A stretch of DNA of 64,000 nt from Haloarchaeobius amylolyticus. GTDB lineage: Archaea; Halobacteriota; Halobacteria; Halobacteriales; Natrialbaceae. A program made the translations under genes and the position numbers. The notes beneath the pieces are model-generated. The model saw only the letters and a program-made list of their open reading frames with translations, was not told where the DNA came from and ran no database searches. Where the stretch lies: NCBI RefSeq assembly GCF_026616195.1, contig NZ_JANHDH010000001.1, forward strand, positions 1,736,001 to 1,800,000. Direction: 5' to 3'. Below are positions 33,298-35,335 of the stretch, piece after piece (the stretch's first letter is position 1; every line of letters starts with the position of its first letter).

Positions 33298-35232
33298 TCA
33301 GCTGAGGAAGTTCGGCTCGACGTGCTTCTGGTCGCGCTCGGCGCGAAGGTGCGCTAAGAACTCGTCGGTGTCGACGTCGTACTCCTGGCGCTCCTTGCGG
33401 TCGCGCACGGAGAGGTTGCCCGCCTCCTCCTCGTTGTCACCCACGATGATCATGTACGGCACGCGGTCGTTGTGCGCGCCGCGGATCTTGCGCTCGATGG
33501 TCGCGTCGCGGTCGTTGACCTCGACCCGGAACTCCGAGAACCGCTCTTTGACCTCGTAGGCGTACTCGAGGTTGTCGTCCGAGATGGGCAGGATGCGGAC
33601 CTGCTCGGGCGCGAGCCAGAACGGGAACTTGCCCGCGAAGTGCTCGATGAGCACCATGAAGAAGCGCTCGTAGGAGCCGTACAGCGCGCGGTGGATCATC
33701 ACCGGGCGCTCGTGCTCGTTCTCCTCGCTGACGTAGGAGAGGTCGAAGCGCTCGGGCATGTTGAAGTCGAGCTGGACCGTCGGGCCGTCCCACTTGCGCC
33801 CGAGGGCGTCCGTGAACGCGAAGTCGATCTTCGGCCCGTAGAACGCGCCGTCACCCTCCTCCAGGTCGTAGTCCATGCCGCGCTTCTCCAGCACCGAGGT
33901 GAGCTGCTCTTCGGCCTGCTCCCAGATCTCGTCGCTGCCGACGGACTTCTCGGGGCGGGTCGCCAGCGCGACCTCGAACTCCAGCCCGAAGGTGTCGAGG
34001 ATCTGCATGATGATGTCCATGATGGCCTCGACCTCGGCCTCGATCTGGTCCGGGCGGACGAACAGGTGGCCGTCGTCGATGGTGAACGCCCAGACGCGGG
34101 AGAGCCCGGAGAGCTCCCCGCGCTGTTCCTTGCGGTAGACCTTCCCGTTCTCGGCGTACCGGATGGGCAGTTCGCGGTAGCTCCAGGAGTGGTCCTGGTA
34201 GATGGCCGCGTGGCCCGGGCAGTTCATCGGCTTCAGGCCGTACTCGTCGTCACCCACGTCGAACAGGAACATGTCGTCGTGGTAGTTCTCGTAGTGGCCA
34301 GACTGCTTCCAGAGGTCCGTCTTGAAGACGTGGGGCGTCTCGACGTACTCGTAGCCCGCGTCGAGGTTCATCCCCTCGATGAACCGCTCCAGTTCGCGCA
34401 GGATGGTCTTCCCGTTGGGGTGGTAGAGGGGAAGGCCGGGGCCCGTCACGTCCTGGATGGAGAAGAGGTTCATCTCGTTGCCGATCTTGCGGTGGTCGCG
34501 CCGCTCGGCCTCCTCCTTTCGCTCGAGGAACTGCTCCAGGTGGGACTCCTTCTCGAAGGCCGTCCCGTAGATGCGGGTCTGCATCTCGTTCTCCTCGTCG
34601 CCGCGCCAGTACGCGCCGGCGATCTCCATGAGCTCGATGCAGCCGATCTCGCCCGTCGAGGCGACGTGGGGGCCGGCACAGAGGTCCTCGAACTCGCCCT
34701 GGCTGTAGAAGGTGATGTCCGCACCTTCCTCGTGGAGCTCCTCCAGCAGCTCCAGTTTGTAGGGCTGGTCGGCGAGGCGCTCTTTCGCCTCCTCGTAGCT
34801 CACTTCCTCGCGCTCGATGTCGAGGTCGGCCTCGACGATGTCGCGCATCTCCTCCGCCAGCTCGGGCAGGTCGTCGGAGTCGATGTCGACGTCGTCGAAG
34901 TCGTAGTAGAAGCCCTCGTCGGTCGGCGGACCGATGGCGAGCTTCGCGTCCGGATACTTCCGCAGCACGGCCTGTGCCAGGACGTGGGCTGCGGAGTGAC
35001 GCATGACCTCGAGGTACTCGTCGGACTGGTCCGTGACGATCTCGATCTCGGCTCCGTCGTGGACGGTCGCCTCCTTGGCGACGAGGTCGCCGTCGATCTT
35101 GCCGGCGACCGTGTCCCTGCCCAGACCGGGGCCGATCTCGTAGGCGACGTCCTCGACGCTCGCCCCCTGCGGGACCGCGAGTTCCGAGCCGTCTGGTAGC
35201 ACTACCGCTATCTGTTGTTCTGATTTCGACAT
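33298..35232 (-). CDS. thrS: Threonyl-tRNA synthetase
   Basis: The 644-residue class II synthetase charges tRNA-Thr. The order is TGS domain (about 1-65, [25 protein letters not shown]), editing domain with HSAAHVL (near 79-85), the catalytic core with [11 protein letters not shown]-like sequence ([14 protein letters not shown], zinc cysteine), [13 protein letters not shown] and a [11 protein letters not shown]-starting anticodon-binding domain. It is of the bacterial-like type with the bacterial HxxxH editing site, not the archaeal D-aminoacyl deacylase-like type; many haloarchaea have this form. The leader upstream carries a 13-bp inverted repeat and the mRNA is probably not leaderless. Confidence 0.97.
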
Positions 35233-35251: not shown

Positions 35252-35335
35252 GGTCGGTGTCTGCCAACGCGAGAACCGGTAGGTGGAGTTGTGGGTTAGC
35301 GGGCGGAAACCCGACCTGTAAAGCAGACACCTACC
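35252..35335 (-). promoter_or_regulatory. thrS leader inverted repeat, candidate cis-regulatory RNA
   Basis: On the minus strand GGTAGGTGTCTGC (35335-35323) and GCAGACACCGACC (35264-35252) pair at 12 of 13 positions, with a 58-base loop. The second arm ends 19 bases before the thrS ATG at 35232. A TATA-like CTTTTGCCC near 35362-35370 would start transcription around 35340, putting the first arm at the 5' end of the mRNA. The alternative reading is a DNA operator, or transcription from a GCTTTACAGG box at 35315-35324, which would remove the first arm. Confidence 0.45.

Follow-up and report, generated by a model that had tools for sequence, protein, structure and literature searches.

A probable leader-peptide attenuator upstream of the threonyl-tRNA synthetase gene in haloarchaea

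Background

The threonyl-tRNA synthetase gene (thrS) of the haloarchaeon Haloarchaeobius amylolyticus is preceded by a long inverted repeat. What does such a repeat do between an archaeal promoter and the start codon of a synthetase gene? Bacterial thrS genes are autoregulated. The leader of Escherichia coli thrS is a translational operator resembling tRNA-Thr, the thrS and thrZ genes of Firmicutes carry T-box riboswitches, and E. coli pheST is controlled by an attenuator with the leader peptide PheM. Ribosome-mediated attenuation is a textbook bacterial device, and we know of no earlier case in Archaea. A literature search found no leader-peptide attenuator in archaea; most of the subscription literature lay outside that search, which makes it weak evidence of novelty. 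In the available part of a report on Haloferax volcanii (PMC4983044), leaderless transcripts make up 72% of the protein-coding ones and mostly start on the start codon, and translational control by structured leaders is held to be atypical. Here we analyze a window of 64,000 nucleotides of the H. amylolyticus genome (contig NZ_JANHDH010000001.1), together with related genomes.

The thrS leader in the window

The window exhibits a bacterial-type thrS gene (644 aa, position 33298 to 35232), identified by sequence matches. This gene and the features of its leader are on the minus strand. Upstream of it, GGTAGGTGTCTGC (35335-35323) pairs with GCAGACACCGACC (35264-35252) at 12 of 13 positions, and the second arm stops 19 nt 5' of the thrS ATG (35232). 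The original prediction of 13-base arms upstream of thrS is thus borne out. So is its placement of a TATA-like element and of a predicted start by the first arm: the hexamer CTTTTG is found at 35370-35365, and the predicted transcript start adjoins the first arm. The folding energy of the whole leader is ordinary (z = -0.73, with 40 of 200 shuffles folding equally well). The 5' arm and the region downstream of the open reading frame described next form a predicted duplex of -24.2 kcal/mol (z = -5.0, 60 dinucleotide shuffles). An Rfam search of the leader returned two chance matches only, neither of them a T-box.

Two features had escaped the original prediction. The 5' arm forms the first part of a conserved upstream ORF (uORF) of 13 codons, ATG GTA GGT GTC TGC TTT ACA GGT CGG GTT TCC GCC CGC TAA (35337-35296), which encodes the peptide MVGVCFTGRVSAR and is probably leaderless; the G of its ATG opens the arm. 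The same arm also has a second, nearer and more widely conserved partner, CACCTACC at 35285-35278. The near helix, P1, joins a 5' arm made of the U of the ATG plus GGUAGGUG (35336-35328) to a 3' arm CACCUACCG (35285-35277) located directly 3' of the uORF stop. The far helix, PD, is the inverted repeat itself. Folding further places an apical hairpin, P2, within the uORF (35313-35300), and a U-enriched tract GGTTCTCGCG (35277-35268) lies directly 3' of P1. The inverted repeat is real and conserved, yet it is only one half of the leader-peptide switch proposed below.

Distribution of the leader among haloarchaea

A covariance model built from 17 leaders (R1) was searched against 392 genomes of the order and matched 142 of them at an E-value of 0.5 or better. 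Loci were fetched for all 94 genomes with a real match in the window's family (f1, probably the Natrialbaceae to judge from the names of its members) and for 40 matches outside it; those left unfetched were weak matches with E-values of 0.1 or worse and a single match in G176:C149 (E-value = 0.03). A script located an in-frame succession of ATG, TTTACA and stop codon no more than 420 nt before thrS at 93 of the 94 f1 loci and at 35 of the 40 others. The sole miss in f1 (L124) is a broken assembly, and the five misses outside f1 are chance matches (E-values from 1.5e-5 to 0.06). In total, the leader is found before a bacterial-type thrS in 129 of the 392 genomes: 94 of 96 in f1 and 35 outside. 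The latter belong to f7 (9 of 9 genomes), f10 (3 of 3) and scattered genera. G197 and G341, the two f1 genomes without the leader, also lack a bacterial-type thrS, the match there having just 29-30% identity. Six of 43 named thrS contigs exhibit the leader, namely those of Natronorubrum texcoconense, Natrialba swarupiae, Haladaptatus halobius, Halosimplex pelagicum and two metagenome-assembled genomes. No second copy was detected at other genes of the H. amylolyticus genome, the next match (E-value = 1.0) being taken as chance. None of the 17 matches in a phylum sample of 294 genomes, for which the share outside the order is not listed, was a leader outside the order.

Six genomes (G192, G242, G349, G147, G152 and G190) possess two thrS genes, of which the copy with about 70% identity (69-70% in genomes such as G192, G147, G152 and G190) lacks the leader and the copy with 56-59% identity has it, a situation similar to the thrS/thrZ pair of Bacillus. 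At L124 (G079), the 5' portion of thrS occurs twice, on either side of an N, and seems to be misassembled; this locus was dropped from the shuffle, arm-pair, covariation, TATA, gap-length, accessibility and T-fraction counts and from part of the distance count.

The uORF

A set of 131 distinct leaders was compiled with a regular expression requiring TTTACA, and two further leaders (L209 and L210), outside that set, were counted separately. The frame, start and stop of the uORF are conserved in the 129 genomes, and the uORF stretch is far better conserved among relatives than expected of a spacer. Among the 131 leaders the uORF is 13 codons long in 96, 14 in 23 and 10-18 in the remainder, ending with TAA (118), TGA (11) or TAG (2). 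In 117 of 130 leaders, a distance of 32 or 33 nt separates the first base of the best-matching TATA-like hexamer from the uORF ATG; no TATA peak exists at a matching distance before the thrS ATG in these leaders. Where the usual ATG is lost (L131, L143, L147), an in-frame replacement ATG precedes the usual position by one codon. The uORF of L209 and L210 has 30 codons, with its ATG 22 codons before the TTT and in frame, and the peptide end RFTRA-x-ARF is retained. The stop is shifted into the apical hairpin in nine leaders (L130, L131, L134, L136, L140, L145, L146, L160, L164) with the frame of ACA kept, and further out in two more (L144, L159), still in frame with ACA. Because of the TATA phasing, the moved in-frame starts and the in-frame stops, we infer that ribosomes read the uORF, and the conservation of its frame argues for its translation. 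As in a leader-peptide attenuator, a short putative uORF is thus located between the promoter and the regulated gene.

The control codons

The uORF codons TTT ACA (Phe-Thr, 35322-35317) are identical in all 131 distinct leaders and in L209 and L210, a count biased by the TTTACA requirement of the regular expression; the 129 genomes found with R1 are a fairer base, though R1 was also built on TTTACA leaders. Both codons are extremely rare. In 40 ORFs of the window, ACA represents 23 of 1066 threonine codons and TTT 5 of 586 phenylalanine codons; in 81 thrS genes the corresponding figures are 21 of 1915 and 87 of 2292. The peptide residues flanking Phe-Thr vary among leaders, the pattern G-x-x-F-T being invariant and a C-terminal ARF being common in f1. 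TTT and ACA are invariant even at their synonymous sites, which argues that the codons, beyond the residues, are under selection. A rare codon that remains unchanged even synonymously is the pattern that a sensor of tRNA charging would retain, and the uORF has its cognate codon at a constant position, as an attenuator does.

The invariant element UUUACA could also be recognized by something other than a ribosome. A T-box-like RNA would bind uncharged tRNA-Thr through an ACA specifier, or the leader would bind the synthetase itself; the autoregulation of bacterial thrS counts for such an explanation. Of the tRNA genes typed in H. amylolyticus, one is a tRNA-Thr(UGU) gene, and UUACA is complementary to the UGUAA of its anticodon loop (CUUGUAA). 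However, the Rfam search gave no match of this kind. A T-box bulge would need UGGA since this tRNA-Thr ends with U73, and UGGA is not conserved in the alignments, as read by eye. The moved starts and stops, the in-frame insertions and the uORF-phased TATA element are unexpected of a pure binder of tRNA or protein, and the parallel Phe and Trp uORFs described below fit the reading of codons. We thus regard a T-box-like or synthetase-binding RNA as unlikely. A longer T-box-like pairing of UUUACA with the anticodon loop was also considered and rejected: just UUACA fits, and A37-A38 is present in all three tRNA-Thr genes found in the genome.

The haloarchaeal leader resembles the T-boxes of Firmicutes thrS and thrZ in being a synthetase leader that may sense the charging of tRNA-Thr, and differs from them in lacking an Rfam T-box match and a bulge for the tRNA 3' end, the sensing being proposed to be done by a ribosome. 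Its likeness to the E. coli thrS operator is that of a thrS leader presumably exerting feedback on the supply of the synthetase. In contrast to that operator, it exhibits a codon in place of anticodon mimicry, and a uORF. No operator-like loop was found: among eight folds none has a 7-nt loop with NGU, and the invariant unpaired element is UUUACA. A tRNA mimic is unsupported since the start, frame and stop of the uORF, needless for a mimic, are conserved. Of the original proposal, a structured and regulated archaeal thrS leader is strongly supported by the comparison of leaders, with arms conserved and compensatory changes in relatives. Its analogy to the bacterial tRNA-like operator is not supported, given the lack of an Rfam match, the invariant unpaired codon ACA and the conserved uORF.

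Might it be the nascent peptide and not the threonine codon that halts the ribosome, with free threonine as a possible signal? The invariant G-x-x-F-T and the frequent C-terminal ARF in f1 would suit an arrest peptide. Residues outside F-T, however, differ widely, the position of the stop included, and the invariance extends to the synonymous sites of TTT and ACA, so that we find this explanation improbable.

Conserved helices

Covariation was examined for P1 and P2 in a model-fitted alignment. Double changes were identified in 8 of 14 pairs and in 43 cells, against 14.6 cells in shuffles (none of 500 as high), the alignment comprising 97 distinct rows and two of its 102 matches being on the opposite strand; controls with slid partners gave at most 3 pairs. 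Compensatory arm pairs of P1 are exemplified by GGCAGGUGUC/GACACCUGUC in L082 and GGUGACUG/CAGUCACC in L038; in L207 and L208 P1 is weak. For PD, uORF codon 5 and its partner covary among 91 f1 leaders (CGC/GCG in 59, CGT/ACG in 9, TGC/GCA in 8), and folding predicts PD as the state of the free leader RNA of the window. PD is no better than shuffles in most leaders of f7, f17 and f4, and is seen in f1 only; outside f1 the near helix P1 is the conserved one. The arms in relatives exhibit the conservation and compensatory changes that the original prediction had asked for, the far helix being confined to f1 and the near helix being kept outside it. Since P1 and PD use a common 5' arm, they are mutually exclusive. 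In f1 the leader accordingly exhibits two mutually exclusive predicted helices sharing uORF codons 1-5, as an attenuator does; outside f1, P1 alone is found.

Two leaders (L003 and L086) contain a hairpin-rich, MITE-like insertion of about 85 nt in the loop between the uORF and the P1 3' arm, with both P1 arms retained.

The arms are palindromic in the DNA as well, and the 5' arm overlaps the predicted transcription start, as expected if the repeat were a transcription-factor site and the uORF incidental. Such a DNA operator is very improbable: G-U pairs are used throughout, the spacing of the arms is variable (the uORF stop and the 3' arm are about 75 nt apart in L003 and only a few nt apart in most leaders), and the conserved frame of the uORF would be unexplained.

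Proposed mechanism

The leader appears to work like a leader-peptide attenuator, the comparative features of such a device being present, and we consider it quite likely that it is a ribosome-sensing attenuator for the supply of threonyl-tRNA. Transcription would begin on the uORF ATG or no more than about 3 nt away from it, and the leaderless uORF would then be engaged by a ribosome. When threonyl-tRNA(UGU) is short, this ribosome would halt while the very rare ACA occupies the A site and UUU the P site; the 5' arm would lie under it, neither P1 nor PD would form, and thrS would be expressed. When threonyl-tRNA is plentiful, the ribosome would reach the uORF stop and leave, allowing the 5' arm to fold into P1 with its U-enriched 3' flank and later, in f1, to move into the stronger PD. 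The folded leader would then lower thrS expression, most likely by early termination. The uORF, the control codons, P1, PD and their common arm are established by comparison among leaders. Translation of the uORF and stalling at ACA are presumed steps, and of the likewise presumed output step we are the least sure.

Regarding this output, T makes up a fraction of 0.31 of the 16 nt behind P1 and of 0.13 of the remaining leader, as counted in 128 leaders and inside f1 as outside. By analogy, this flank may recall a hairpin with a U-rich flank. The T runs are mostly 1-2 long, without a classical terminator, and a terminator behind P1 is thus unproven. Simple translational masking is unsupported: with an ACA-halted ribosome masked over assumed covered lengths, the mean unpaired probability of the thrS start is 0.58 in both the free and the stalled states (129 leaders). 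As masking leaves access to the thrS start unchanged, we favour, with low confidence, an output at the level of transcription. A pairing between the thrS ribosome-binding site and the P1 3' arm was also rejected: visual inspection shows it in some f7 leaders containing GGAGGTGT, but the mean z is only -0.46 (128 leaders).

Further observations count against the attenuator: the uORF has a single threonine codon, a ribosome halted at ACA in L209 or L210 would not cover the 5' arm, UUU is invariant although the model has no need of phenylalanine, PD is confined to f1, and P1 is weak in L207 and L208.

The uORF stop and the thrS start (35298-35232 and the matching stretch elsewhere) share a reading frame in 105 of the 131 leaders; counted as distinct distances, 33 are in frame and 9 fall in each of the other two frames. 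Stops are not depleted in the thrS frame of the gap (102, 88 and 101 of 131 leaders have the three frames free of stops), and a TGA stands between the uORF and thrS in the window. Among f1 pairs, gap lengths that are multiples of 3 are not in excess (128 of 427 against 239 of 855 upstream; L003 dropped). It is hardly credible that P1 is a bulge-helix-bulge site of a 5' UTR intron, whose splicing would join the uORF to thrS and so account for their common frame in 105 of 131 leaders, even with the 5' UTR intron at HVO_1309 of H. volcanii in the available part of PMC7714728, as P1 is mostly an unbroken helix without the two 3-nt bulges 4 bp apart of the archaeal motif, 26 of the 131 leaders are out of frame, and multiples of 3 are not overrepresented among the gap lengths.

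Similar uORFs at other synthetase genes

The attenuator reading of the thrS leader gains unforeseen support from the leaders of other synthetase genes, where uORFs of like architecture carry cognate codons. According to the available part of PMC4983044, H. volcanii has 5' UTR uORFs at a tryptophan--tRNA ligase gene (HVO_A0127; 23 aa) and at pheS (26 aa). Consistent with these sizes, the Haloferax relatives in our genomes exhibit uORFs of 23 aa (TrpRS) and 28 aa (PheRS); G242, G192 and G349 are putatively Haloferax larsenii, mucosum and elongans. The uORF list in that part of PMC4983044 mentions no cognate codons, structure or regulatory reading, and thrS is absent from its table. In the study of PMC7714728, the level of mature tRNA-Trp was reduced.

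The pheS uORF of H. amylolyticus (L265) encodes MAAESSHRGIAQEHGDTPGFGFFFAV, and its GFGFFF motif also occurs in two Haloferax and one f1 relative. A search of the 392 genomes with back-translated GFGFFF matched 170 of them, and the reversed pattern used as a control matched 13. Among 30 fetched loci, 28 are located 118-217 nt before pheS and 27 of these are in an ATG-started uORF (the script found no ATG in L296). These uORFs (L262-L264, L271-L298 and L265) are leaderless-looking and about 25-29 aa long, with GFGFFF near the end.

A second TrpRS gene is present in 156 of the 392 genomes at an E-value of 1e-60. It is preceded by the uORF MQSAPCWRWRSFPGADSIACGVDVA in H. amylolyticus (L313/L340) and MVSTSRATCWRWRSTWEVDSIAV in Haloferax larsenii. 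In two sets of loci (26 of 30 and 18 of 20; 44 of 50 in all, L341-L389), the uORF starts with ATG and contains two Trp codons that are adjacent or separated by one residue. Among the six misses, L353 and L359 exhibit the same peptide from a GTG, L354 and L357 have one Trp (both readings by eye), and two have nothing. Folding of five Trp leaders places the Trp codons within a strong hairpin that has its 5' arm after the start codon; in these predicted folds the plan is the same as that of the thrS leader.

Upstream of valS, TATA-phased uORFs with paired Val codons (MEHPAAAVVRP and MSAMVSVVRL in L324 and L325) were seen in two of four genomes, and these VVR uORFs are a lead only. No cognate uORF was noticed for tyrS, ileS and leuS in four or five genomes.

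As in E. coli pheST with its PheM peptide, a short uORF with cognate codons precedes the synthetase gene and alternative helices are found, and the haloarchaeal pheS uORF has a run of Phe codons. In contrast to pheST, the haloarchaeal uORF is probably leaderless, its own start codon lies in the 5' arm, and no canonical terminator follows; the thrS uORF moreover has a single ultra-rare threonine codon and no run.

Conclusion

It seems reasonably likely that a haloarchaeal family of leader-peptide attenuators, acting on otherwise leaderless transcripts, tunes the synthetase genes thrS, pheS, the second trpS and perhaps valS. If true, this would be the first ribosome-mediated attenuation known to us in Archaea, with a leaderless start codon built into the switching helix, and archaea would couple the position of a ribosome to gene control in cis. 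The pheS and second trpS genes of H. volcanii have uORFs of about the sizes found here, so that whether and how archaea sense tRNA charging would become a question open to reporter tests in this species.
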